DNA of 64,000 bases from Sphingomonas sp. QA11 (GTDB lineage Bacteria; Pseudomonadota; Alphaproteobacteria; Sphingomonadales; Sphingomonadaceae), in contig NZ_CP098774.1 in the NCBI RefSeq assembly GCF_028473665.1, positions 3,128,501 through 3,192,500 on the forward strand. The letters run 5' to 3'. The notes under the pieces were generated by a model. The model did no database searches, was not told the DNA's origin, and saw nothing but the letters and a program-made list of their open reading frames with translations. Both the position numbers and the translations under genes were made by a program. Shown here one piece after another: positions 25,632 through 62,465 of the stretch. The first letter of the stretch is position 1. The number at the start of each line of letters is the position of its first letter.

Positions 25632-26155
25632 AGGCCGCGCCGGGCGAGTTCCTCGGCGACGCGCTTTTCGACGCATTCGGCGAAGCGCGCGGCCTCCTTT
25701 GCCTCCCTTTGCGGCCGCTCTTCTTCCAGGCGCATGAACGCCTCCAGCCATCGCCGGGACATATCGGTCTCTTCCGGCTCCTTCTCGCCCGCCCAGGGAC
25801 GGGGACGGCGACTGGCGAGCCATTGCTTCGCCGCGCCGACATCAGCCGGGACATGGATGGTGACGGGCACGACCACCGGCTCCTTCGCGCCGCCTGGGTT
25901 GAAGATCTTCACGTCCTGATACTCATAACCGCAGGCGCGCTCGTACAGCGCGCGTTCGACCCGGTCGTCGGCGAGTTCCTTGCCGGCCCTGAGCGCTTCG
26001 GCGAAGGCTTCGTGTTCGGCACGCCAGCGATAGAAAGTGCGCACGCAGACGCCGAGGATATCGGCGATCTCGCGATCGGTGGCGCCATTGCGACAGAGCT
26101 TGCGCGCCTGCTCGGCGAAGTCGGGGCGATAGACGCTGGGGCGGCCTTTGGACAT
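25622..26155 (-). CDS. Phage terminase small-subunit-like protein (orphan)
   Basis: A 177-residue soluble protein. The N terminus has a helix-turn-helix (KLCRNGATDREIADILGVCV, then RTFYRWR), followed by ALYERACGYEYQDVKIF and a VPADVGAAKQWLASRRP block, the pattern of small terminase subunits that recognise phage packaging sites. No large terminase, portal or other phage genes are adjacent, so this is a remnant or a repurposed DNA-binding protein. The C-terminal 50 residues are a charged helix (EEERPQREAKEAARF). It overlaps map by 10 bases. Confidence 0.8.
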   Translation of the reverse strand: MSKGRPSVYRPDFAEQARKLCRNGATDREIADILGVCVRTFYRWRAEHEAFAEALRAGKELADDRVERALYERACGYEYQDVKIFNPGGAKEPVVVPVTIHVPADVGAAKQWLASRRPRPWAGEKEPEETDMSRRWLEAFMRLEEERPQREAKEAARFAECVEKRVAEELARRGLQE

Positions 26156-26531
26156 GGCGGCGAGTTTAGCGGGGAGTGGGCGTTCATTGAATCAACCGCG
26201 CGCCGCTGGATGCCGCGAAGGGTGCGTGTGACAAAAGCCGGGGCGGATTTTCGGGCGTGGGCGAGAGGTTCACGAGGAGGAAAGCGCGAAAGAGCAGGTC
26301 GGGCGTTGGAGACTTTTGTCATGCCTGTCCGGCCGGGAGGCATGGACATCGGTAGCGACATAGTGAAAGTGCCGCGGGACAATTGCACGTGCCAAGCGTG
26401 CCATACCCTGAGGATAGCGAGATTCGATCAATTAGTAAATTGTCACCATTACTACCGATCAATCAATAAACTATCGCCGTTAGCCTATTCCATTTATTCT
26501 ATTATCGGCAGCTTCCTTTTGCGACAAGATC
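26156..26531. other. Non-coding gap with inverted TGACAAAAG repeats, becoming AT-rich
   Basis: No gene is seen in these 376 bases. A nine-base inverted repeat, TGACAAAAG (26229-26237) and CTTTTGTCA (26313-26321), brackets about 75 bases. From about 26400 the sequence turns markedly AT-rich and stays so into the next two genes. It could hold the end of a mobile or exchangeable segment; no terminal direct duplication was found by eye. Confidence 0.55.
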
Positions 26532-26852
26532 TCAATGCGATTCTAAGGCAGCAGCGGCCACGTAGCTCACAGCCGTAAGCGCAAAATACGATAGCCAAAT
26601 AATGACAGGACTTATATTCATATGTAAAATTAAATTTATTACCAGAAATATAATAAACACAATATTAATGAATAAGAATATATAAAAAGTATATGTACCA
26701 CCCTTCCCTATTTTAGATCTTACCGCAGCTATAGATACAATTGCACAACATACCGTACCGATGATTAGATTAATCCAAGCAGAATCGAACTTCGTGCTAA
26801 ATAATGTATATATTAGCAAAACCGGAAGCACGCCGATTAATAAATTTCTCAT
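26532..26852 (-). CDS. AT-rich four-helix membrane protein, candidate partner of the RHS protein
   Basis: A 106-residue, very hydrophobic protein with four probable membrane helices (residues about 2-17, 26-44, 54-76 and 82-102). The start is eight bases behind the RHS stop, so the two are almost certainly co-transcribed. Codon usage is strongly A+T-rich, unlike the genome around it, as is the adjacent RHS C-terminus. Small genes directly behind polymorphic toxin tips usually encode immunity proteins; a membrane immunity protein would fit a membrane-acting tip. I do not recognise the family, and the immunity role is inference. Confidence 0.7.
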   Translation of the reverse strand: MRNLLIGVLPVLLIYTLFSTKFDSAWINLIIGTVCCAIVSIAAVRSKIGKGGTYTFYIFLFINIVFIIFLVINLILHMNISPVIIWLSYFALTAVSYVAAAALESH

Positions 26853-26860
26853 AAAAACCC

Positions 26861-29800
26861 TTAAAGGCCAAATGGAGAGTTGATCTTTAGAGCAGGAAGC
26901 ACGCTAATTCCGCAGCTGGGATCGCTTAATGCTACAAGCGCAGCACCAGAAACCCCAGCGAACGCTCGGACTTGAGGTGACGCGGTTATCACTCTTCCTA
27001 ATCCGATCCGAATTGCCGATCCCCAACTCCGTTGCAGCCTCGGTTCGTTGCTAGGTTTGAAGAGGCGATCTTCCGATGCGGACCGATTCTGCGCTCCCGT
27101 GATCGCGCCTCCAACGTCTATCGCGAGGTTGATCGGATTGAGCGCCCCCACTACACCTCCAAGCACTGAATTTGTAATACATTGTTTAAGATCAAATTTC
27201 GGCGCTTCTGGCGCTTTCTGTAACTTAGGTTTCGGCACGATAATTGCCGTAACTATAATATCAGGAGGATTACTGGCATCAATCTCACCACCAAGATCAA
27301 AATTTGGCTGAGCGCTACCATCGCCGCCATTTCCACCACTACCGCCACCCCCGCCTGGGCCGGAACTATTCCCGCAAACTACAGGCTCGCCCGCCGCTTC
27401 CCCCTCCTCTTTAGCACTCTCACAGCTCAACCCTGATGGATCAATTCCATTAACCGGGTCTCCGTGGACATAATTATACAAGTTCATGCCATCGTCATAG
27501 CCGATGGGATCAGTCTGCAGGAACCGGCCGAGCCGCGACGAGTAGATGCGCGCCTTGTAGTAATAAAGGCCCAGTTCCGGCAGATAGGCCTGCCCAGTGT
27601 ACTGGAACCGTCCGATATTGCCGCTGCCAGGCACACCATATTCGTCATAGCTGTTGATGCCGATCGCGGCGCCCGAGGCGTTGGTCACTGCCACGACCGA
27701 ACCACGCTCATCGGCATGTAGCCAGCGCCGGTCGCTCGTGCCCGAACCCTCGTACCAGACCACCGGCTCATCGGCGCCGGGGCCATAGACATAGCGCCGT
27801 TGCACCACCCCGGAACTGTTGAGCTCAGTCGCCATATGATTGCCATCATACACAAATCGAGTTTGTACCGTTCCGGTATATTCGACCAGACGCCCAAACC
27901 CGTCGTAACGCAGCGTGGTACCTCCCGATGCGCCGGTCAGCAAATTCTCGGCGCTGTAACTGTAGGTATTGCTGCCGGTGCTGGTGAGATTGCCGCGTGC
28001 GTCATAGCCAAGGCTGCCGCCGCCCACGGTCGTCATCTGGTTCAGCCCGTTCACCGCATAGGCGCGGTCGACATTGGCGCTGCCGCTCCAGGCATAGGCG
28101 TCGTTCGACCGCGTCATTGACACGATCTGCCCCGCCGGGTTGTAACCGAACCCAAGGCTCTGGTCATAGGCTACTCCCGACAGGTCCTGCCCGAGCGAGG
28201 TCAGCCGCGAAGCGTTGTCGAACCCGTAGCTGGTGGTCGTGCCGTTGCCGCGTGTGATGCCGGTACGGCGGCCGAGATTATCGTAGCCATAGGTTGCCAG
28301 CACCCCGACGCCCGAGGCAGCACCATTCTCCCGGATCGCTGTCATCTCGCCCGTCACGAGATAATCATAGGTGACGTAGAAGCCGTCATTCCATTGCTGG
28401 ACGGTGCGGCGCCCGGCAAGGTCATATTGATAGGCGAACGTCCCGAAACCCTGGTTGTGACTGGTCAGCCTGCCAAGAGCATCATAGCCGAAGCCATCGG
28501 TTATCCCGTCGCTGCGGCTCGCAACCGTCATCCTGCCGAGCAGGTCATAGAGGTAGCTGACATCATATTCCGGCGATGGCAGGTCCTTGAACCCCACCCG
28601 GTTGAGATTGTCATAGCTATAGCCAATCGTCTGACCATCGCGCAGCCGGCGGCTAGTGACGTTGCTGGCGGCATCATAGCCGAGTTGTTCGTAGTCGGTC
28701 GCCGAGCTTGCCTGCGCGCCCGGCGTCATCACCGGATAGCGCGTGACCGTCAGCCGGTCATAGCCGTCATAGTCATAGCCAGTGCGGTTGTTTACCGCGT
28801 CCGTGACGCTCAGGACCTTGCCGTTGTCGGAATACCCATAGGTAACATCAACCGAAGCGTCGGCGGTGCCGAGGGCGCGGGTAACCTTCCAGATGCGGCC
28901 CAGCGTATCATATTCGGTCTTGCTGATACGGTCGGGACCTTGAGTCCCCGTGGTGGACAGGGTGCAGGCCACGGGCAGCGACCCGTAGGTCGCTGGATTC
29001 ATCCGCTGCGTGGCGCAATCGACACGGCCGAGCGCATCGTAGCTGGCCTGCGCGAGCGCATAGATCGTCCCGCCCGAGGCAAGCGTGCGCACTATCGGCC
29101 GGGCGTTCGCGTCATAGCTCGTATCGATCGACTGGAGCGAGGCGAATGTGGCCCAATCACCGTCCGACTGGCTGTTGACAGTGCCGTTCTCGACCCTGGT
29201 CAGCAGGCCGTTGGTATAGGTGTTGCGCACTGCCCGATTCTTCAAGCTGCCGCCGCCGTCCGGGTCGGGCGAGACGGTCCCGATCAATTCCCGCGCTGCA
29301 TTGTATCGGTAGCGCACGGTATCGGCAGTGCCGGCGAGCGGTCCATCCACGGTCAGCAGATTGCCGAGCCCGTCAGAGGTAATCGTGCGGGCGGCAATCA
29401 GGGTTCCCGCGCCATTTCCGTTTGAGGCGCTGATGACATTGCCATTCGCGTCGTAGCTCCGGGTGCTGACCACTTCATCAGTCGTTCCCGCGCAGGAACT
29501 GGTCGTTTGACAGGCAGAGGTGCCAGTCAGCTGATATACGTTGTTAACCAGCGTATAGCTGTACCGCGTCTGCGGTCGCACCGCGCCGGCACTCGGCGCG
29601 GGGAGCGTTACCGACGTGACGCCGCCGTGCGTCGCATCATAGGCGTAATTAGTGGCGTTTCCCCGCGCGTCGGTCGTGCTGTTGGGCTGGTTGCACGTCA
29701 GCGGATTGGCGCAGCCCGCGTCATAGCTCGCGCTGGTCGTGATCGACGACGCCCCCGCCTTCGCCACCATCTGCGTCTGGGTGACGTTCCCGCGACTGTC

Positions 29801-43753: not shown

Positions 43754-44668
43754 ATGACCCTGACCATCGAGGTGCTGATGCCCGCCGCCGCCAGCGAATA
43801 TGGCGCGGCGGCGGTGGAGATTCTCGACCGGTATCGCGACGCCTTTGCGGCGCACGGGATGACGCTGGCCACCCGGCCCTGGGATCAGGGACCGGGCGAT
43901 GGGGCCGATGCAACGCTAGCGCTGTTCGCCTGGGGCTATCATCTCGACGTCGCCCGGTGGGAGGCGATCCTCGCAGCCTGGCCGGCGGAACGGCTGTTGC
44001 TCAACGCGCCTGCCCTGCTGGCGTGGAACACCCGGAAAACCTATCTGCTCGAGCTCGAGGCAGCAGGCGTCCCGATCGTGCCGAGCCGGTTCGGCCGGGC
44101 CGACGACGCAAGTCTCGCCGCCGCGTTCGACCATTTCGGCGCCGGGGAACTGGTGGTGAAACCGCAGGTATCGGGGGGCAGCTTCCGCACGGTGCGCGTC
44201 CGGCCGGGCGATCCGATCGAGCCGCTCGACGACGCGATCATCCAGCCGTTCGTGCCCGCGGTTTCAGACGAAGGCGAATTGTCCTTCCTGTTCATCGGCG
44301 GCACCTTCAGCCACGCGGTCCGCAAGGTGGCGAAGCAGGGCGATTTCCGCATCCAGCCGCAGTTCGGCGGCCAGTTCAGCCGTTTCGAACCTGAGCCGTC
44401 GCAACTCGCGCTCGCCGAGACGGTTGTGGCCGCGCTGCCCGAACCGTCGCTTTACGCCAGGGTGGACCTGCTGCGCCTCGCCGACGGCAGTCTGGCGCTG
44501 ATGGAGCTGGAAGCGATCGAGCCCGATCTCTACCCGCACATGGCGCCGGAGCTTCCCGCCCGCCTCGCCAAGGCCGTCGCGTCTCAATGTAGTGGCCAGG
44601 TCCAGATCACCAGCGGCGTACCGACCAACACCACGAGGATCGACAGCGGCGCCCCAAGCCGGGCATAA
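43754..44668 (+). CDS. ATP-grasp domain-containing protein
   Basis: A 304-residue protein with an ATP-grasp fold: GELVVKPQVSGGSFRTVRVR is the nucleotide-binding strand-loop, AIIQPFVPAVSDEGELSFLF lies in the middle and ALMELEAIEPDLYPH carries the magnesium ligands. It resembles the RimK/glutathione-synthetase-like group including cycloserine-type ligases. It joins a carboxylate to an amine using ATP; partners are unknown. The last 85 bases overlap the convergent transporter gene, and the tail beyond residue 275 (SQCSGQVQITS) may not be functional. Confidence 0.85.
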   Translation: MTLTIEVLMPAAASEYGAAAVEILDRYRDAFAAHGMTLATRPWDQGPGDGADATLALFAWGYHLDVARWEAILAAWPAERLLLNAPALLAWNTRKTYLLELEAAGVPIVPSRFGRADDASLAAAFDHFGAGELVVKPQVSGGSFRTVRVRPGDPIEPLDDAIIQPFVPAVSDEGELSFLFIGGTFSHAVRKVAKQGDFRIQPQFGGQFSRFEPEPSQLALAETVVAALPEPSLYARVDLLRLADGSLALMELEAIEPDLYPHMAPELPARLAKAVASQCSGQVQITSGVPTNTTRIDSGAPSRA

Positions 44669-46359
44669 TCGCCGAACTGGTATCCGCCCGGCCCGAACAC
44701 CAGCGTGTTGCACTGATGGCCGATCGGGGTGAGGAAATCACACCCCGCCCCCATCGCCGTCGCGATCAGGAACGCCTCGGGCCGGTAGCCGAGATCATGC
44801 GCGAACACAGCGGCGATCGGCGCCATCACCAGCACGGTCGCTGCATTGTTGAGGAACGGCGTCACCGCCATCGCCGCGACCAGGATCAGCGCCACCGCGC
44901 CCCAGGGCGGCAGGGTCGCGCCGAGATGGGCGAGCCATGTCGCGATCACGTCCGACGCGCCGGTGGTCCGCAGCGAATCGCTCACCGGGATCAGCGCGCC
45001 GAGCATGATCAGGATCGGCCATTCGACATTCTCATACGCCTCGCGCACCGGCAACGCGCCGGTGGCCATGACCAGTCCCGCCGCCGCGAAGAAGGCGACC
45101 GCGACCGGCACGTAGCCGCCGGCCGTCGCGCCCATCGCAACCGCCAGGATCAGGATCGGCAGCCAGCCGCGTCTGGAATTGCCCAGCCGGAGCGATCGCT
45201 CCGCCAGGGGCAACGCGCCGAGATCACGAAGCCGTTCCGGCAACAGGCCGAGCGGCCCCTGCAGCACGATCACGTCACCGGCGCTGAGCATCGTCTCCCC
45301 CAGCCTCTTGGTCAGCCGCTGGCCCGCGCGGGATACGGCGATCAGGTTGACGCCATAGCTTTGCTGGAGCCTGAGCCGGCCCGCCGTCTGCCCGATCAGC
45401 ACCGATTCGGCATTGATCACTGCCTCGATCACACCGACCTGATCTTTTTCGCTGCCTTCCGGCACGTCTCGATCCTGTCCCTCCAGCTGGAGCTTGTCCC
45501 TGGCGATGACGCGTTCGAGCGAGTCCGGATCACCGCCAAGGATCAGCGTGTCGCCTTCCTGCAGGACCATGTCCGGAAGCGGCGGCGTGCGCAGCCCGGC
45601 GCGCAACAGGGTGGTGATGGTCACCTCGTGATCGTGACGCTCGACAAAGGCGGTGACCGTCTCGCCCGCCGCCGACGATCCCTCGGGAATCGACGCCTCG
45701 GTAACATAGCCCTTGATGTCGAGCGCCTCCCCCATGGTGGGTGCGGCATGGCGGTCACGCGGCAACAGGCGGTAGGCGAAGCGCAGGAAGACCAGGCCGA
45801 CCAGCAGCAGCCCGAACCCGGTCGGGAAATAATCGAACATGCCGAACGGCTGCCCGGTCATGTCCTCCCGCACCCGGCTGACGATGATGTTGGGTGAGGT
45901 GCCGACCAGAGTCATCAGCCCGCCGAGCAGCGAGGCGAACGACATCGGCATCAGGAAGACCGACGGGCTGGTGTCGTTCTTCTTGGCCATCTGGAATGCG
46001 GCCGGCATCAGCATCGCCAGCGCGCCGACATTCTTGACCAGCGCCGAGGCGATGCCGACCGACGCCGTCAGCACCAGCAATTGCGAGCGCACCCGCTTCA
46101 CCCGTTTCGAGACAAAGGCGAGCGCGATCTCGATCACCCCGGACCGCTGCACCGCCGCCGAGATGACCAGGGCCGAACCGACGATGATGACGATGTCGTC
46201 GGAAAAGCCGGTGAACGCTTCCTTCGGCTTGACGATGCCGAGCGCGAGCGCCGCGAGCAAGGCGAGGATCGCCGTCACGTCGTAGCGGAAACGGCCCCAG
46301 ATGAAGAGCGCCATCATCCCGGCGAGCGTGGCGATCGATAGCATCTGGGGGAGAGTCAT
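44584..46359 (-). CDS. SLC13-family permease with RCK_C domains
   Basis: A 591-residue transporter with about eleven helices divided by two TrkA-C (RCK_C) domains in residues about 215-390. LALGIVKPKEAFTGFSDDIV and MLMPAAFQMAKKND in the first half and VEWPILIMLGALIPVSDSL and PFLNNAATVLVMAPIA in the second are the anion-transporter-like (CitMHS/DASS) blocks. RCK_C domains bind regulatory ligands. Sulphate, dicarboxylate or citrate are possible substrates. The 3' end overlaps the ATP-grasp gene by 85 bases. Confidence 0.9.
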   Translation of the reverse strand: MTLPQMLSIATLAGMMALFIWGRFRYDVTAILALLAALALGIVKPKEAFTGFSDDIVIIVGSALVISAAVQRSGVIEIALAFVSKRVKRVRSQLLVLTASVGIASALVKNVGALAMLMPAAFQMAKKNDTSPSVFLMPMSFASLLGGLMTLVGTSPNIIVSRVREDMTGQPFGMFDYFPTGFGLLLVGLVFLRFAYRLLPRDRHAAPTMGEALDIKGYVTEASIPEGSSAAGETVTAFVERHDHEVTITTLLRAGLRTPPLPDMVLQEGDTLILGGDPDSLERVIARDKLQLEGQDRDVPEGSEKDQVGVIEAVINAESVLIGQTAGRLRLQQSYGVNLIAVSRAGQRLTKRLGETMLSAGDVIVLQGPLGLLPERLRDLGALPLAERSLRLGNSRRGWLPILILAVAMGATAGGYVPVAVAFFAAAGLVMATGALPVREAYENVEWPILIMLGALIPVSDSLRTTGASDVIATWLAHLGATLPPWGAVALILVAAMAVTPFLNNAATVLVMAPIAAVFAHDLGYRPEAFLIATAMGAGCDFLTPIGHQCNTLVFGPGGYQFGDYARLGAPLSILVVLVGTPLVIWTWPLH

Positions 46360-46437
46360 GCGGCCTCATTCATCCGGGATATGCCCGGTCAACTCCCGGC
46401 AGCGGATTTGGGCTCCCGGCAATCGCGGAGCAGACGC

Positions 46438-48270
46438 TCAGGCCGCCAGGTCCGCCGCCTTTTGTTGCTCCGGGCGCTGCAGCGCCGGGCTGGCGAGCGT
46501 ACCGGCATGGGTCACCACGTTCAGCAGCTTGCCTTCATGCTCGATCAACATGTCGCGAGCCAGGAACCAGTCGGCATGCGCGGCCAGCGCAGGATTCAGA
46601 TCGTCGCGCGCGACAGGCCGTTCGAAGGAACGCAGCGCCGCGACCCTGTCGGGCGCGATGATGGTCAGGGGCTGGCGCGCGACGCGGCGCGTATCGGCGA
46701 TCATCGCCCCCGCCGCCGAGGATTTGACGATCGCGAGCACCGGCGGCGACCGGCGAGTCCATTGCTGTTTCCAGCGCTCGATCTCCTCCTCCAGCGCGCG
46801 CAGCAGGGCCGGGTCCTTGAGCAGTTCGGTCGAGTAGCGGCCCATGAAATGATAGGCGATTCGATCTAGCGCGGCGTCGTCGGGATAGAGCGCGCGATAG
46901 ACGGGGATCGGCGTCAGATCAGCGATGCCGAAGGTCGCGGGTTCGTTGAAATAGGGGCTGAACCGGTCGATGACGATCCCGCTCATCCCGCTCGGCGCCT
47001 GAAGGTGCTCGATCCGCGGCATCAGGTCCAGCACGGCACGATAGGCCTCCGCCGTCTCGCCGGGCAGGCCGTAGAGATAATTCCACACCACTCGGATCGC
47101 GAAGGAACGGGAATCGCGCAGCAGCATGATGTTCTGCAGGCCCGACACGCCCTTTCGCATCAGCCGCAGGACGCTTGAAGAGAGCGATTCGATTCCAGGC
47201 TGGATCGCATCGATCCCGGCACGGGCCATCAGATCGAGTTGTTCGTGCGTGAGATTGGCCTTCACCTCATAGAACAGGTTCGGCCGCTCCTCGCGCTCGG
47301 CGAGCACCGGAAGCAAATCCTTAAGGTAGCGGAGCGGCATGATGTTGTCGGCGAGCATGAACCGTTTCACGCCCCACAAGTCGCCGACCGCGTCGAACTC
47401 CTCGAGGATCAGCGCCGCTGGCTTCTCGCGGAACGACATGGTCTCGCCGTTCAGGCCGCAAAAGGTGCAGTGGTTCTTCGCCCCCCACCAGCATCCGCGC
47501 GAGCTTTCCATCGGCAGCGAATAGGGCAGTTCGGGCGGGAGCTGCCGCCGGGCCTGGGCGGCGCGCAGATCGGCGAAGAAATCGGAGAAATCGGGGGTCG
47601 GCGTCACCCGCATGTCCCTGATCGGCTCGCAATGCACTACCCGCCCGGCGGGACGCTCGCCCTTCAGGACATAGCGCTCGCAGAAATCGGGAAAGGCGGT
47701 GTCGGCCTCGCCCGAGAAGAAATGGTCGACGCCGGTGAAGATGTCGGCCAGCGCTTCCCCCATCGGCGACGCGATATTGGCGCCGCCCAGGACGATGCAG
47801 ATCTCCGGCGCGGCGGCCTTGACCCGCAGCGCCAGCGCGGCGGAAGCGAGATTCTGCTGGAAGACCGACGATATCCCGAGGATGCGCGGCGCCAGGGCGA
47901 CGATCTGCGCGGTCAACGCATCGAGAAACGGCCCGACCATCGGCGCGATCGCATCATGCTCCGCTTTCAGCGCCTCCGGTATCGGACCAGGCTCGCCGAG
48001 CCGCGCGCGCATCGTGGATGGATAGGCGTGATCGCGGAACAGCCTTTCACCGACCATCTGCTTGATCGAGGAATCGCTCACCGCGCGATAGGCGTCATAT
48101 CCGGACAGGCTCGCGAGCAGGATGTTGCCGTGCAATACGCGGACGCTCAGGCCCCGCGCCTTGCACGCCGCGGCAAGGATCGCCGATCCGAGCGGCGGCG
48201 TCGCGATATCCGCGAAGGGCGGCACGACGATGCAGATATCGACCTTCTGATCGTCCCGCCTGTCGTCCAC
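46438..48270 (-). CDS. B12-binding radical SAM protein, RiPP maturation type (TIGR03975-like)
   Basis: A 610-residue enzyme. Residues about 10-230 are a B12-binding-type domain (VPPFADIATPPLGSAIL; ILGISSVFQQNL; IVLGGANIAS). The radical SAM core begins at SSRGCWWGAKNHCTFCGLNG, whose CxxxxxxxCxxC-spaced cysteines hold the 4Fe-4S cluster, followed by DAIQPGIESLSSSVLRLMRKG and NYLYGLPGETAEAY. The CWWG..HCTFCGLNG block is the mark of RiPP maturation radical SAM protein 1, which modifies ribosomal peptides. The GTG at 48270, with GGGGAGCAGG before it, is preferred to the TTG at 48285. No precursor peptide gene was found in the window. Confidence 0.88.
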   Translation of the reverse strand: MDDRRDDQKVDICIVVPPFADIATPPLGSAILAAACKARGLSVRVLHGNILLASLSGYDAYRAVSDSSIKQMVGERLFRDHAYPSTMRARLGEPGPIPEALKAEHDAIAPMVGPFLDALTAQIVALAPRILGISSVFQQNLASAALALRVKAAAPEICIVLGGANIASPMGEALADIFTGVDHFFSGEADTAFPDFCERYVLKGERPAGRVVHCEPIRDMRVTPTPDFSDFFADLRAAQARRQLPPELPYSLPMESSRGCWWGAKNHCTFCGLNGETMSFREKPAALILEEFDAVGDLWGVKRFMLADNIMPLRYLKDLLPVLAEREERPNLFYEVKANLTHEQLDLMARAGIDAIQPGIESLSSSVLRLMRKGVSGLQNIMLLRDSRSFAIRVVWNYLYGLPGETAEAYRAVLDLMPRIEHLQAPSGMSGIVIDRFSPYFNEPATFGIADLTPIPVYRALYPDDAALDRIAYHFMGRYSTELLKDPALLRALEEEIERWKQQWTRRSPPVLAIVKSSAAGAMIADTRRVARQPLTIIAPDRVAALRSFERPVARDDLNPALAAHADWFLARDMLIEHEGKLLNVVTHAGTLASPALQRPEQQKAADLAA

Positions 48271-48393
48271 GCCTGCTCCCCGCAATGCCTCGTCGGGCGG
48301 GAAAACACCCCGACGTCCGGCCGATCGTCGCTGGATACCCTGATATCGGCGCCTTGTCGCCTCAATGTCAGCCGGTCGTGCGGAAACGCGCTC

Positions 48394-51300
48394 TCAATAA
48401 TCTTTCGACACACGCAGATTCCCGCTCTGCCGGCCGAGCGTGGAAATGCTCGAAAGGACCGACAGCCAACGCGTCACCCGGAATTCGACCTGAGTCGCCG
48501 AATAGCCCGCGCCGTCAGTGATGATCTCCGCGAACAGCCGCCGGGTGATGTATTTGCCCGCCGCGACTGACGTGCCCGCGCCGGTCTGCGGATCGGCGGG
48601 CAGGATCCGCAGCCGGTCCAGCCCGGCCGCGCGGCGCACCACGTTGATCGGGTTGAGTCCACCGCTGCCGTCACGCAGCGCCGCGACCGCTGCCGCGAGT
48701 TGCAAGGCCTCGGGTGCTGAGAGGTTGGTGATCGAGGTGCCGAACAACAGGCGCGAGAGCAGTTCATCCTCGGGTAGCGCGGGGATGCTCGTGAAGCTGA
48801 TCTCCGGTTTCTGCGCATTGCCGGTCACGCGGATGCTCGCGCTCAGCCCGGTCGAATCCGCATTGGCGGCAATGTCGAGCGACGGGTTGGCCGGCACCTC
48901 GCCCACGAAGAGGATACGCCCACGCTCAAGCTCGAACTGGCGGCCGGCGAACTCGTAGTCGCCATGGACCAGGTCTGCCCGGCCGTTGATCGCCGGATTG
49001 TCCGGCGCACCGCCAAGCTGGAGATCAGCCGACCATTCGCTGTTGAGACCGAGGCCGCTGACGATGAGCTGGTTCGCCGCATGTGCCTTGATCGCGAGCC
49101 GCCAGGGCTTGCGCGGCACCTCATCCTCTTCACCCCCACCCGGCAGGTTGATCTCGCGAATGTTGAGCTGCGGCACCGCGCTTGCCGCGCTGGCCCGACC
49201 GAGCCGGTAACGGCTCTTGTTAAGCACCAGATCGCCGGCGATCACCCCGCCCTGCCCGTCCGACCTGATCGTCAGCGGCCCGGTGACGGTCGCGCCGATA
49301 TCATCGCGGTTGATCATCACCGCATTGTCGGCGCGGATCGCGAGATCGATGCCGAAACCGTTGGCGGCGGCGAGATCGAAGGTTCCGGTCCCGGTGACCC
49401 GCCCACCCTTGCCAGCATCCGCGGCGAACTTGTCGATCACCAGCCGCGACCCACCGAACCGCCCGGACGCCTGCACATTGGTGAGCACGGTGCCGGTCAC
49501 GCCGCCTTCGATCCGGGCATTCTTCGCCTCGACCACGCCGCGAATCTGCGGATCGTCGACCCGTCCACCCAGATCAGCGGCGATAGCGATCGGTCCGGTC
49601 AGGTCGAACAATTCCATGCCGGTGAGTCGCCACAGGGTATCAGCCGGCCCGTCATAGCGAAGCTGCGCGAACAGCCCTGCCTTGGCGAGTTGGCTCGCCA
49701 GGTCTCCCGAGCCGGACAAAGTGAGCTGCGCCTGCGCCCGGCCCACCATCTTCCCGCCGCTCTTGGCGACGGCACGCGCCGCCGCCTTGCCCGGCTGGAG
49801 GATACCGGCGATTCCCACGTCGACCGGCTGCGACGACAGGATCAGCCCCGACCGGGTCAACCCGCGCACCGTCATGTCGACCCGGCCTGTCGGGGCTGCG
49901 CCATGGCCTTGCGCGAAGGAGAGCTTGCCCGACGCCGTTCCGCCAAGCCCGAGCCCGGGATAGCCGATGTCGAGGATCGACAGCGGCATGCGCGACAAGG
50001 TCGCGTCGACCGCGCTCGACGCTTCAGTGAACCGCCCGGCGAGCTGGGCCTCCCCGCCGGCAAAGCTGAGCCTGGTCGAGGCGAGCCGCCATCCGTCGCC
50101 GTCGCGGGTGAACACCGCGGGAGTCGCCAGGCGTAGCGGGCGGCGGTCGAGCGTGCCCTGGGCCGAGACGGCGAAGCTGTCGGGCGTCACCTGGGTGACC
50201 GTCTGGATGTCGAAGGCGCGGCCACGTGCACCGGCGATCGAGGCGCGGATCTCGCCCCGCCCGCCGCGGAGCGACGCATTGGCGGCGAACCGCCCGAGCG
50301 ACAGGGTGCCGCGACGCAGCCCGTTGCCCGTCGCCGTCGCGTCGATTGAGGTGCCGACAGGATCGAGCAGCATGACCGCGTCGAGCCGACCGCGCCGGAG
50401 GGTGATAACGTCGTCAAGCCTGGCCGCGTCAGCTGCCAGATGCGCCTCGATCCGCTGGATCGTGCCCACCGGCCGGAACAGCAATTCGCCCGAAATGCCG
50501 CCACCTGCGATGGCGAGACGGCCTTCGAACCCGCCGGTCACGATCTGCAACGCTCCGTTCGCCCTGGTGCCGATGACGTCGAGCTCGTCGACCTGGATGG
50601 TGCCTTCGGCACCGGACGGCAACAGGATCTCGCCCTTGCCGTCGAACGGCCCGAGCCTCGACCCGCCCCGCGCGGTGAAGGCGAAACCGCGTGTGGTCGG
50701 ATCGAGATGCGCGACAACATTGCTCAGCCCCATCGTTTCATTGGGCCGTTCGAACACCAGGTCGAGCGTCGGCCGCTCGATCTTGCCGTCGAGCTTCAGG
50801 GTGAGCGGACCATAGGTCGCCTGGGTGCCGCGGCCTTCGAAATGGAACGTGCCGTCGCGCCGGCGGATGCCGTTTCCGGCAAGGCGCAGCGACGGCGATG
50901 TCAGGACGAGGTTGTTGAGGTGGAGGATGCCGTCGGGCGTTCGTTCGAGCCCGGTCGTGATTTTCGGCAAGCCGTCCGTCAACGATCGGAAAAAGGCATT
51001 GTCGAGCCGCACTATCTGCGCCGTGCCAGTGCCGATTACCCGTGCGCCTCGCCCTGCCGGGCCCGGGACCACGCGAAGGATGGATCTGACGTCGACAATG
51101 CCGAGACCGGGGATAAGATAGCGGCCGAGCACGCCGTTGACGCCCACTTCGAACTTGCCGGTCACCAGGTCGAGCGTCAGGTTGATCCGACCGGTCAGCT
51201 TGTCCGACTTGACGCGGAGGTCGTCGCCGATGACGAGCTTGCTGGTAACGCGAAGCATCCCGTCGAGGCTGAGATTCCTGAGGATGCCACCGGCGACGTC

Positions 51301-52548
51301 GCCGATGCCCGTCACCCGCGCCGCGGTGAAGCGGATCGGCACCCTGATCGGGGACTTCGAAAAGGTGCCGGCGCCGCCGGCGCGCGCGACCTCGAACCCG
51401 GTATCGTCGAAGGCGAAGCGGTCGGCCTTCAGGCGATAGTCGAAATGCGCGGTGGCGAAGGCGCCGTCCAGGATCGCGCGGAGTTCGATTCCCCGACCAC
51501 TCATGTTCGGGAACAGCGCCTTGGGCTGGAGCAGCCGGGCATGAAGGCGCAGGTTGCGGTACGCGCCCTGCCCGAGATCGACCGTTCCCACCGTATCGAT
51601 CGCAAGCGCGGCGGAACGCAGGGTGAGGGTTCCGTCAAGCCGCCGGTCGGCAAGGGTCGCGGCGCCGCTGACGGCGATGCGCGGTGTCGTCAGCCGCTGC
51701 AACTTGCCCTTGGCGAGCGGCGCCGGAGTAAGGGTGCCGGTCAGCGCGTAGGTGCCCGAGCGGTTGTTCAGCGCGAGATCCACTAGTCGTACCCGACCGA
51801 CATCCGCGCGCGCCATGCCCTTCCACATGGCCCAGGTTCCGTCGCCGGCGATATCGATCGCGATCGGGCGGGCAAAACCGGCGAGCTTCGCCAGCACGCC
51901 GTTCGCCGTGCCCCGGGCATGAACGCCGACATCGAATTTGTTGCGATCCGGCTCGGCATCCAGCTTCAGCGCAAGCGTGTCGCTACCCTCCACCGTGGCC
52001 GAAAGATCGACCAGCGCGCGGCCGGCATGGATATCTGCGCGTCCGGCCAAGCGGCCGGTCCGCGCCACGCCCGTGATCTTCGGGGAAACCGCCAGCCGGT
52101 CGACGCGCAATTCACCGATGCGGATGTCGAACCCCGGCAGCAACGGCCCTCCCTTGCCGGTGCGGATCGTCTGCGGAAGTTTCGCCAGCGTCGCACGCGG
52201 AATGACCAGGCTGCGGATATGCAGCCTGTTGTCGAGCCAGGCGAAGGGCACCCAGCTCAGGTCGGCACGCGGCGCGTAGAAGATCAGGCCCTTGGGGTCG
52301 GAAATACGGACGTCGACCAGCCTCGCCCGGGAAAAGAGCGATCCCTCGATCCGCCCGACGCTGAAGCGCAGGCCATTGGACGGCCGCAGCCCCGCGATCT
52401 GGTCCGCCACCCAGCGATGGCCGATGCTGGTGTCGAGGATAGCCAGCGCCGCCCCCAGCAGAGCGACGATTCCGAGAATTCCGCCAGCCAGCCAGCGCCA
52501 CCAGCGCCGGCGCGGCCGGGCTGCAGGCGGAGTCGCTTCCTCGCTCAA
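48394..52548 (-). CDS. tamB: TamB-like translocation/assembly protein
   Basis: A 1384-residue protein with a cytosolic basic start (PRRRWWRWLAGG), one membrane helix (residues about 19-39), a very long periplasmic beta-rich region and the DUF490 C-terminus (INGRADLVHGDYEFAGRQFEL, RVTGNAQKPEISFTS, ATQVEFRVTRWLSVLSSIST). TamB spans the periplasm and works with TamA, in outer-membrane protein insertion and in phospholipid transport. Its start overlaps the tamA stop (ATGA, 52545-52548). Length is similar to other TamB proteins. Confidence 0.93.
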   Translation of the reverse strand: MSEEATPPAARPRRRWWRWLAGGILGIVALLGAALAILDTSIGHRWVADQIAGLRPSNGLRFSVGRIEGSLFSRARLVDVRISDPKGLIFYAPRADLSWVPFAWLDNRLHIRSLVIPRATLAKLPQTIRTGKGGPLLPGFDIRIGELRVDRLAVSPKITGVARTGRLAGRADIHAGRALVDLSATVEGSDTLALKLDAEPDRNKFDVGVHARGTANGVLAKLAGFARPIAIDIAGDGTWAMWKGMARADVGRVRLVDLALNNRSGTYALTGTLTPAPLAKGKLQRLTTPRIAVSGAATLADRRLDGTLTLRSAALAIDTVGTVDLGQGAYRNLRLHARLLQPKALFPNMSGRGIELRAILDGAFATAHFDYRLKADRFAFDDTGFEVARAGGAGTFSKSPIRVPIRFTAARVTGIGDVAGGILRNLSLDGMLRVTSKLVIGDDLRVKSDKLTGRINLTLDLVTGKFEVGVNGVLGRYLIPGLGIVDVRSILRVVPGPAGRGARVIGTGTAQIVRLDNAFFRSLTDGLPKITTGLERTPDGILHLNNLVLTSPSLRLAGNGIRRRDGTFHFEGRGTQATYGPLTLKLDGKIERPTLDLVFERPNETMGLSNVVAHLDPTTRGFAFTARGGSRLGPFDGKGEILLPSGAEGTIQVDELDVIGTRANGALQIVTGGFEGRLAIAGGGISGELLFRPVGTIQRIEAHLAADAARLDDVITLRRGRLDAVMLLDPVGTSIDATATGNGLRRGTLSLGRFAANASLRGGRGEIRASIAGARGRAFDIQTVTQVTPDSFAVSAQGTLDRRPLRLATPAVFTRDGDGWRLASTRLSFAGGEAQLAGRFTEASSAVDATLSRMPLSILDIGYPGLGLGGTASGKLSFAQGHGAAPTGRVDMTVRGLTRSGLILSSQPVDVGIAGILQPGKAAARAVAKSGGKMVGRAQAQLTLSGSGDLASQLAKAGLFAQLRYDGPADTLWRLTGMELFDLTGPIAIAADLGGRVDDPQIRGVVEAKNARIEGGVTGTVLTNVQASGRFGGSRLVIDKFAADAGKGGRVTGTGTFDLAAANGFGIDLAIRADNAVMINRDDIGATVTGPLTIRSDGQGGVIAGDLVLNKSRYRLGRASAASAVPQLNIREINLPGGGEEDEVPRKPWRLAIKAHAANQLIVSGLGLNSEWSADLQLGGAPDNPAINGRADLVHGDYEFAGRQFELERGRILFVGEVPANPSLDIAANADSTGLSASIRVTGNAQKPEISFTSIPALPEDELLSRLLFGTSITNLSAPEALQLAAAVAALRDGSGGLNPINVVRRAAGLDRLRILPADPQTGAGTSVAAGKYITRRLFAEIITDGAGYSATQVEFRVTRWLSVLSSISTLGRQSGNLRVSKDY

Positions 52549-60542: not shown

Positions 60543-62465
60543 ATGGCCGGATTGTTCCTAGTCCAGACGGCTGACCCTGATTTCGCCGATGCGGCGCTGG
60601 CCGGCGCGCGTGCGCAGTTCGCGCTGCACGGCTTCCGGATGGCGGGCGTGGAACGGCAACTGCCGGGCTGGCGATTGCTGCATCTGCCACATATCATCGG
60701 CGGCCCGGAGAACCTGCTCGCGCAGGGCGACGATCTCGTCGCGATTGCCGGCACCCTGACCTTCGACGGGCTGATGGGCGAAGCGGCGCTGCGCAAGCTG
60801 CTTGAATCGGCGGCGCTGCCGGCACTGGACTGGTCGCGCATCGGTGGCCATTTCGTCGCGTTCGTCCGCAAGGGCGGCCGCAACTTCCTGTTCACCGATT
60901 ATTTCGCGGCCTTCCAGATTTTCCACGATCAGGGCCGAACGGTCTTCTCAACCTCGTTGCTGGCCGCAGCCAAGGCGCTGCCGCGACTGAGCTTCGATAG
61001 GCAGGGCATCTATGAATTCGCCTTCAATGTCGTGCCGATCGGCGACGACACGGTCTTTGCCGAACTCAAGACATTGGGGCCGCGCGAGATCATCGAACTG
61101 ACGGAGCGGGGATGCGTGGCGCATGCCACGACCAAGCCGTTGCCGGGCCTGCTGCGCGACATGCCGCCGGAGGAACGGCTCCGCGACAACCGGGAACGCC
61201 TGGAGAACGTGATCGCCGCCCATGTCGGCCATTTCGGCGACCGGGTGCATTGCCCCCTGTCGGGCGGGCTCGATTCGCGCCTGTTGCTCGCGGCGCTGCG
61301 GGCGGCGGGGAGCCGCCCGGAGGTCTATGTCTATGGGCCGCCGGGCAGCCCGGACGTGGAGATCGCCCAGGCGATCGGCGCTGCCCAGGGCTTTCAGGTC
61401 CGCTGGACGGACAAGCATGCCGCCGATCTCGACCCTGCCGCGTTCGTCGAGCAGGTCGAGCGCAATTTCCATGAATTCGATGGACTGCCCAATTTCGGCA
61501 ACATCTTCGACAATGGCGGCAATGCCATCGCGCGCGACGCGCGCCATGCCGGCGGCGGACTGGCCGCATCGGGCGGCTGCGGCGAGATCTATCGCGATTT
61601 CTTCTTCCTCCCGGATCGGCCGATCACCGCCACCACGGTCGCCAGCACGTTCTTCGCGCGCTTCATCCGGCGCGATGCGACCGCCTTGTTCGATCCGACC
61701 GAGTTCTTGCGCCGGATCAGCGACAAGATCCGCGACGCGCTCGAAATCCCCGGGGAGACTGGACCGATCCCGCGCGCGCAGGTCGAGCAGATCTATCCGC
61801 GGGTGCGGTGTCGCTCGCTGTTCGGGAGGGAGATCAGCATGGAGGCGCGCTATGGCGCCTATCTCATGCCATTCCTCGATCATCAGGTCGTCGCCGGCGC
61901 GATGGCGCTGCCGATGCGCCTCAAACAGGCGGGCCGCTTCGAAGCCCGGCTTCTCGCCGCGATCGACCCGGAACTGGCGCGCCAGCCCTCGGCCTATGGC
62001 CATGACTTTGCCGGTCCGCCCAGTCGCGCGCACCGCATGTCGGAATGGTCCTCCCGAATCCGTCCGGCATGGGTACGGCGCGAGAGCTACGGCATCCGGC
62101 GGCGCCTCCGCCCGATGTCGGACGAACATGGCGGCCTGCTCGGCCCGGCCTATATGAACCGGGTGCTCGACCCCGCCTTCCCGGCGATGCGGCGTTTCTT
62201 CCGGATGGACCAGATCACCGACAGCGGCCTGTGGCGGCGTATCGCGTGTCTAGAATATCTTGCCCATCACCTTGGCTCGCACCTTGTCGACGAGGCCGGC
62301 AGCGGCCGAAAGCTGCCCGCGCGACCCCACCGGCTCGATCCGGTCGGCGAGATCATTGTCGCGAACGACGATCCGGTCGCCGGACCAGTTGCCGACAAAG
62401 GTCGTGTTCCAGCTGAAGCCGGGCGAGAGCCGCGCGACATTGTGCTCCACGATCAATCCGGCTGA
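60543..62465 (+). CDS. Asparagine-synthase-like protein lacking the N-terminal Cys
   Basis: A 640-residue protein. The C-terminal part has the synthetase motif PLSGGLDSRLLLAALRAAGS at about residue 238 (PP-loop binding ATP pyrophosphate), and the N-terminal part resembles the class II amidotransferase fold. The nucleophilic Cys expected at position 2 is Ala (MAGLFLVQ), so it cannot use glutamine in the normal way. The last about 72 codons (after CLEYLAHHLGSHLVD) are antisense to the beta-helix gene and may be a readthrough of the natural end. It is in the exopolysaccharide locus, so a sugar-amidation or glycan-linked role is possible. Confidence 0.85.
   Translation: MAGLFLVQTADPDFADAALAGARAQFALHGFRMAGVERQLPGWRLLHLPHIIGGPENLLAQGDDLVAIAGTLTFDGLMGEAALRKLLESAALPALDWSRIGGHFVAFVRKGGRNFLFTDYFAAFQIFHDQGRTVFSTSLLAAAKALPRLSFDRQGIYEFAFNVVPIGDDTVFAELKTLGPREIIELTERGCVAHATTKPLPGLLRDMPPEERLRDNRERLENVIAAHVGHFGDRVHCPLSGGLDSRLLLAALRAAGSRPEVYVYGPPGSPDVEIAQAIGAAQGFQVRWTDKHAADLDPAAFVEQVERNFHEFDGLPNFGNIFDNGGNAIARDARHAGGGLAASGGCGEIYRDFFFLPDRPITATTVASTFFARFIRRDATALFDPTEFLRRISDKIRDALEIPGETGPIPRAQVEQIYPRVRCRSLFGREISMEARYGAYLMPFLDHQVVAGAMALPMRLKQAGRFEARLLAAIDPELARQPSAYGHDFAGPPSRAHRMSEWSSRIRPAWVRRESYGIRRRLRPMSDEHGGLLGPAYMNRVLDPAFPAMRRFFRMDQITDSGLWRRIACLEYLAHHLGSHLVDEAGSGRKLPARPHRLDPVGEIIVANDDPVAGPVADKGRVPAEAGREPRDIVLHDQSG

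Follow-up and report, generated by a model that had tools for sequence, protein, structure and literature searches.

What does a RiPP maturase act on when it stands between tamAB and an anion transporter gene, with no precursor gene in view? The question is raised by one gene in the window, the whole 64,000-nucleotide stretch of DNA analyzed here, which comes from a Sphingomonas genome (G000) consisting of one contig of 5.58 Mb. The G+C content of the window is 0.63–0.71 in 2-kb blocks, with the exception of 26001–28000, where it is 0.526. The gene encodes 610 amino acids (aa) from an ATG, or 615 aa from an alternative TTG start at 48285 (Table 1). The original prediction, made from the motifs CWWG and HCTFCGLNG, was that the product is a RiPP maturation radical SAM protein (TIGR03975), and this identity was borne out. 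The protein carries CWWGAKNHCTFCGLNG, in which CWWG is followed by HCTFCGLNG to give a Cx7Cx2C motif, and NCBIfam TIGR03975 matched it with 569.7 bits against a cut-off of 281.85 (E = 7e-171), covering profile positions 1–604 of 606. The motif cysteines were invariant across 30 aligned homologues. A place among hopanoid or bacteriochlorophyll enzymes, named in the prediction as the competing identity, was rejected, with HpnJ at 42 bits, HpnR at 28 bits, and BchE at 17 bits, all far below cut-off.

Table 1. Features of the window gene and its neighbors.
Feature	Coordinates	Strand	Basis
Orphan "clade A" TIGR03975 B12-binding radical SAM protein, copy a, one of three genomic copies	46438..48270	-	Profile, tree
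B12-binding (Rossmann-like) domain segment	47686..47931	-	Pfam PF02310, 30.4 bits, just below cut-off 32.1
Radical SAM domain	47023..47508	-	Pfam PF04055, 54.3 bits, cut-off 29.5
Cx7Cx2C iron-sulfur cluster motif, Cys260, Cys268, Cys271 (610-aa numbering)	47458..47493	-	
C-terminal domain	46519..46737	-	AlphaFold2: three strands, helices, two strands
TamB, upstream neighbor (incidental)	48394..52548	-	PF04357, synteny
CitMHS/DASS-like anion transporter (CitMHS/Na_sulph_symp), downstream neighbor (incidental)	44584..46359	-	PF03600, synteny

An AlphaFold2 model of the whole protein, built on 9 aligned sequences, reached a pLDDT of 87.1 and a pTM of 0.85, with low confidence in the Cx7Cx2C loop (residues 261–277, pLDDT <50). 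The closest solved folds were those of the cobalamin-dependent radical SAM enzymes OxsB, CysS, TsrM, and TokK, and the predicted fold agrees with this enzyme class. The modeled C-terminal domain is possibly a leader-binding winged helix. An RRE domain at this position was considered and rejected: profile comparison with PqqD gave only 7% probability, and the C-terminal fragment modeled alone was poor (pLDDT 49). The only hint of an RRE in sequence was a sub-threshold PqqD match of the enzyme of another genome, G309 (16.9 bits, cut-off 23.4).

We found no precursor-like gene in either gap flanking the gene (46360–46437 and 48271–48393), as had been predicted; three ORFs that touch these gaps (39, 78, and 88 aa) look like chance reading. 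Nor did any short ORF across the whole window match the pattern W-x2-P-x12-[GAS]-x6-[DE]. The prediction had further expected precursors of the Nif11 or NHLP type and proposed a genome search for their leaders. This search returned nothing over cut-off in G000, where the best Nif11 (TIGR03798) match was 19.6 bits against a cut-off of 32.3 and the best NHLP (TIGR03793) match was 11.6 bits. The expectation fails for the clade of the window protein, in which the members located in clusters are paired with lasso-type precursors, as described below. The sub-threshold Nif11 matches (19.6 and 18.9 bits) fell on a 403-aa gene of L102 and a 68-aa gene of L103, both of them lasso-type loci far from the window. 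Proteins of 68–80 aa adjoin a large cyclase-like gene at two lasso-type loci, L103:9771-12163 in G000 and L083:11731-14057 in S. caeni; the L103 member is the one with the sub-threshold match of 18.9 bits.

The neighborhood of the gene, in which TamA (Omp85) also lies upstream together with TamB, looks incidental. A link to tamAB had been proposed; among the five genomes that hold the immediate clade of the window protein (clade A, below), tamAB adjoins the enzyme only in G000 and G144, which are one species. We also compared the 30 best transporter loci, the window's own included, from a set of matches in 69 of 121 genomes. In 11 of the 30, tamB lay 95–1025 bp from the transporter gene with no enzyme gene present (the gap being 95–224 bp in 5 of these, while the other 6 could house a small gene), and the enzyme gene was therefore probably inserted there. 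There was no tamB inside the 1.5-kb flank at 18 of the 30, and the window's own locus shows the radical SAM gene. A conserved tamAB link was thus rejected, and the suggestion that the enzyme acts on an envelope-linked peptide found no support.

To place the enzyme among its relatives, we turned to its distribution and phylogeny. TIGR03975 genes over cut-off were present in 20 of 295 Sphingomonas genomes, and the window-type clade, with at least 46% identity to the window protein, in 10 of 295 (16 tree rows, support 100/100). The other TIGR03975 genes compared showed 30–37% identity (BLAST) and, with the exception of the one in G309, mostly had different surroundings, which in some cases included small leader-like peptides. 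At the family level, 6 genomes besides G000 matched the window protein at E ≤ 1e-60 with 32–42% identity among 397 genomes, which include some from Sphingomonas; the 5 of these 6 loci that we inspected had other neighborhoods. Within the window-type clade, clade A unites the window copy with copies from G144 (same species), G077 (S. caeni), G272 (MAG bin06), and G148 (S. pruni). Its support was 92/84 in the main tree, which omits three long rows (G228, G309, and G244), and 95/92 without G148 in an earlier tree that included them. Genes were called with a home-made caller that missed some, among them the S. pruni clade-A copy and the radical SAM gene in the short locus L001.

All five clade-A genomes have a further copy that lies within or next to a cluster. 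The clade-A copy lies away from the cluster in G000, G144, and G077; in G272 (L077) it is next to the cluster, and in G148 (L080) next to the enzyme of the cluster. Relative to the cluster-located Sphingomonas enzymes, the window gene is an orphan paralogue, and given the arrangements in G272 and G148 the best reading makes it a displaced member of a lasso-type cluster system.

G000 itself holds three TIGR03975 genes over cut-off, namely the window copy (copy a), copy b at 3747977, and copy c at 848279. Beside copy b are genes for a kinase-like protein and an AsnB-like cyclase. At a distance of 4–5 kb, past two genes that we take to be transposase-like and that are not in the G144 locus, come a PqqD-type gene and the gene of a 52-aa precursor peptide (G000:C1:3754488-3754643). 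At the copy-c locus (L029:421-2954), 5 kb separate the enzyme gene from three others: one PqqD-like, one for an HprK-related kinase A (TIGR04352, 234 bits, cut-off 200), and one more. The genes between copy c and the kinase A gene are presumably glmU-like and glmS-like, and the start of a 133-aa protein adjoining the locus is, on our reading, twin-arginine-like. The gene listing of this locus contains no precursor-like gene beside copy c. The original prediction had left open a precursor elsewhere or a new substrate, and had counted a precursor gene elsewhere, in a conventional RiPP cluster, against itself. RiPP clusters that carry paralogues of the enzyme are indeed present elsewhere, and G000 has one of its own; of the two options, a precursor elsewhere is the likelier.

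The genome is rich in lasso-type loci. Besides the cluster at copy b, it contains three B2 genes over cut-off and seven further AsnB-containing lasso-type loci, at G000:C1:4456650 and 3974848 (L104 and L105), 3425319 (L102), L103, L106, L108, and L109. Several of the seven are of the kinase type, and two we assume to be ordinary lasso loci that include a TonB-receptor-like gene. A search of G000 with a model that included the three known precursors found no fourth of the same architecture. Groups of phage tail-collar-related proteins adjoin kinase-type lasso loci in G000 (twice), G271, and G309 (L102:7692-9365, L149:2258-3945, L106:1962-3746, and L072:12373-14110). In the window itself, a diverged asparagine-synthetase-like gene lies at 60543–62465, 12 kb from the enzyme; at 23 bits at best it is no lasso cyclase by score, and the genes beside it are presumably of the exopolysaccharide type.

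We then examined the clusters in which the sister enzymes are found. In all 10 clade genomes, one copy is accompanied by genes for an AsnB-like cyclase, a PqqD-type protein, and a 48–52-aa precursor, the set in G148 being divided between contigs C50 and C103. A kinase-like gene lay within the examined stretch in 8 of the 10 (not in G271 or G215); this label derives from clustering of the proteins with an HprK-related kinase and from weak model matches, far below the cut-offs of the HprK models. The cyclase and PqqD genes matched PF00733 and PF05402 over cut-off, and their best NCBIfam matches were the lasso models NF033535 and NF033536, yet below the cut-offs of these. The B2 leader peptidase (PF13471) was encoded in 10 of 10 clade genomes, never inside an enzyme-bearing cluster. 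In the 8 loci with precursors of the GISYRP type, with domains named from the S. caeni locus, we counted a 2OG-Fe(II) oxygenase (8 loci), an Stf0 sulfotransferase (7), a methyltransferase (7), and a nucleotidyltransferase (6). Tandem precursor pairs occur in single clusters of G272 (L077:3446-3797) and G213 (L153:9269-9710). Two of the 10 cluster copies of the enzyme are interrupted, by an in-frame TAG in G215 and by a frame change in G272, and a second cluster in G240 retains only an enzyme remnant; the enzyme is therefore dispensable.

A comparable cluster was found with a distant enzyme. The TIGR03975 protein of G309 (567.4 bits) is only 31% identical to the window protein, and its locus (L072:3198-14110) holds, nearly all on one strand, a peptide gene, an AsnB-like gene, an Asp/Asn hydroxylase gene, two sulfotransferase genes, a kinase-like gene, a PqqD gene, and the enzyme gene, as well as a 2OG oxygenase gene and three genes for collar-type proteins, one of which was checked. 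Since so distant an enzyme occurs in a similar cluster, the pairing of TIGR03975 enzymes with lasso-type clusters seems to have arisen more than once.

The precursors share a pattern of W-x2-P, 12 residues, Gly or Ala at core position +1, and Asp or Glu at +8. In its strict form, W-x2-P-x12-X1-x6-[DE]8, it was present in 20 of 22 aligned precursors, the exceptions being the G000 copy-b peptide and one G271 peptide. The acid stands at +7 in the G000/G144 peptide and at +10 in that of G309, so that the core start of the latter is unsure and may lie one residue later. As far as the available parts of PMC10368454 describe them, phosphorylated lasso precursors have a lasso leader motif, a Gly1-Asp8 ring, and Tyr at −17; the precursors of the sister loci resemble these, with Trp at −16 in place of Tyr at −17.

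With E < 1e-20 as the threshold, a precursor model of the GISYRP type (A2) matched all 8 of the remaining clade genomes and none of 285 genus genomes without the clade, a match in G168 falling just above that threshold; G000 and G144 have no precursor of this type at E < 1e-20. The model rows came from 7 of the 8 scoring genomes, which match by construction, so that the informative part is the match in G148 and the absence elsewhere, and the Fisher p of 3e-14 is uncorrected for kinship or for this circularity. A weaker match in G253 was dismissed as a chance match inside a 559-aa frame.

Aligned by a ruler of 16 residues from the leader Trp to the presumed core start, which was set post hoc, the precursors differ at core position +6. 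Proline occupies this position in 12 of 12 precursors from enzyme-bearing loci versus 3 of 12 from loci without the enzyme (Fisher 0.0003), a rule that was found after inspection and among precursor rows many of which are related rather than independent. The 12 are 9 of the GISYRP type, the identical peptides of G000 and G144, and that of G309, with two of them from G272, and they span three core types. Two enzyme-lacking precursors examined once the rule was set (G265 and G150) have no proline at +6, giving 3 of 14 in all. The three exceptions (G071, G125, and the second locus of G077) have a common NPGD core, and in the closest enzyme-lacking relatives, GI[FS]YNRGDG (G213) and GISYRIGDG (G250), the proline is gone. 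The G240 precursor beside the enzyme remnant has proline at +6 and was excluded from both counts. In the GISYRP-type loci the 2OG-Fe(II) oxygenase has the same distribution as the enzyme and could explain the proline equally. Taken with the literature on PoyC and BotRMT, the association makes this proline the first candidate for a methylation site.

The window copy is under purifying selection. Between G000 and G144 its Ka/Ks was 0.097, looser than that of its neighbors TamA, TamB, and the transporter (0.024–0.043) and comparable to the values for two copy-b cluster genes, copy b itself (0.071) and the AsnB-like gene beside it (0.118); copy c gave 0.025. The motif and the invariant columns of the clade are intact in the window copy.

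On balance, we favor the reading that the window protein is a C-methyltransferase of lasso-type precursors, an orphan paralogue acting here in trans. By analogy with PoyB, PoyC, and BotRMT, whose chemical type its Cx7Cx2C motif suggests, it would be a cobalamin-dependent radical SAM C-methyltransferase. Such an enzyme would cleave SAM, abstract hydrogen at an unactivated carbon in the peptide core, and pass a methyl group from methylcobalamin to that carbon, presumably before the asparagine-synthetase-like cyclase closes the ring between Gly1 and Asp/Glu. The window enzyme would do so away from any cluster. Its candidate substrate is the 52-aa precursor beside copy b; for the enzyme group, GISYRPTDGLSNLT-type precursors are further candidates. 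The predicted site is the proline at residue 22 when the leader Trp is counted as residue 1, which is core position +6. Among the points against this reading, G000 and G144 already own copy b for their precursor and lack the commonest type of enzyme-linked precursor, and the support of clade A is moderate.

Whether the products are lasso peptides at all bears on this assignment. The clusters might instead make an unthreaded macrolactam, with the enzyme tailoring a new kind of RiPP, which would be compatible with the methyltransferase reading. The cores of the enzyme-linked precursors are short, at 13–17 residues by the ruler, the cyclase and PqqD genes fall below the lasso cut-offs, and the B2 gene stays outside the enzyme-bearing clusters. 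Against this, the same lasso models are the best NCBIfam matches of both genes, and the leader motif and the Gly1-Asp/Glu8 spacing resemble those of lasso precursors in the sections of PMC10368454 at hand; we regard an unthreaded product as unlikely.

We think it similarly improbable that the window copy no longer serves lasso tailoring and now acts on another peptide, or on a small molecule, of the species. In favor of this, G144 has the gene in the same syntenic position, the gene is under selection though no precursor lies near, and copy c likewise has no adjoining precursor-like gene. Yet the flanking gaps and the window are empty of any precursor-like gene or pattern, the tamAB link is confined to one species, and two other genomes have sister copies beside a lasso-type cluster or its enzyme. 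Least probable of all is that the gene is an intact, slowly decaying leftover of a lost GISYRP-type cluster with no present substrate: the GISYRP precursor of the other 8 clade genomes is missing in G000 and G144, the Ka/Ks of the window copy is 2–4 times that of TamA, TamB, and the transporter, and related copies are broken elsewhere, but the frame is open in both genomes with the three cluster cysteines and invariant columns kept, and the Ka/Ks is near that of the copy-b cluster genes.

The methyltransferase reading invites a wider and more tentative one, which we consider possible but would hold loosely. Sphingomonas might have a family of C-methylated lasso peptides whose ring proline at +6 is methylated by B12-dependent radical SAM enzymes. 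TIGR03975 enzymes would then have been recruited to lasso-type clusters at least twice, in the window-type clade and in G309, and orphan copies such as that in the window might serve in trans as a reserve or an additional methyltransferase. If so, lasso peptides would gain a carbon-methylating modification, not found in the lasso literature searched, and a radical SAM tool acting within or beside the macrolactam ring would become available. The proline rule makes the target testable, and the window gene illustrates how an orphan-looking RiPP maturase can be placed through its paralogues.

Among the matches listed from the open-licence literature, as judged from titles and the starts of abstracts, none described a lasso cluster with a B12 radical SAM enzyme. 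By term search, "radical SAM" is absent from PMC13352647 (2026), PMC8498205, and PMC10368454, and in PMC9266682 it was seen only in a passage on epimerases of other RiPPs and in the references. The nearest lasso relatives of the sister loci, as far as these partial texts describe them, are the phosphorylated lasso peptide clusters of paeninodin, pseudomycoidin, SyanA, and Bsf (PMC8498205, PMC10368454). Common to both are an HPr-like kinase, a nucleotidyltransferase, a sulfotransferase, and, by best though sub-threshold matches to the lasso models in the sister loci, a PqqD/RRE-type B1 protein and a C protein, and the sister-locus precursors are alike in the YxxPxL leader with Gly1 and Asp8. 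The sister loci differ in the added B12 radical SAM enzyme and in a B2 gene outside the cluster, and the GISYRP-type loci in an added 2OG-Fe(II) oxygenase.

Among B12 radical SAM enzymes, ApyD of the apy cluster of Burkholderia thailandensis is described, in the part of the report available, as C-methylating an sp3 carbon of a RiPP (PMC10635010). The window protein reached only 42 bits against the ApyD model (cut-off 750), and the partners given there for ApyD are a P450 and an MNIO. Closer in type are PoyB and PoyC of polytheonamide and BotRMT1–3 of bottromycin, presented in the accessible sections of the sources as B12-dependent radical SAM Cβ-methyltransferases (PMC5682303, PMC11285071), with the Cx7Cx2C motif described for PoyC/BotRMT-type enzymes (PMC5682303) and proline as the residue methylated by BotRMT3 (PMC5682303, PMC11285071). 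The window protein shares with these the Cx7Cx2C motif, a modeled cobalamin-type fold, and a RiPP context; it is set apart from them, going by those descriptions, by a clade that goes with lasso-type precursors rather than polytheonamide or bottromycin precursors, and by its own place outside any cluster.
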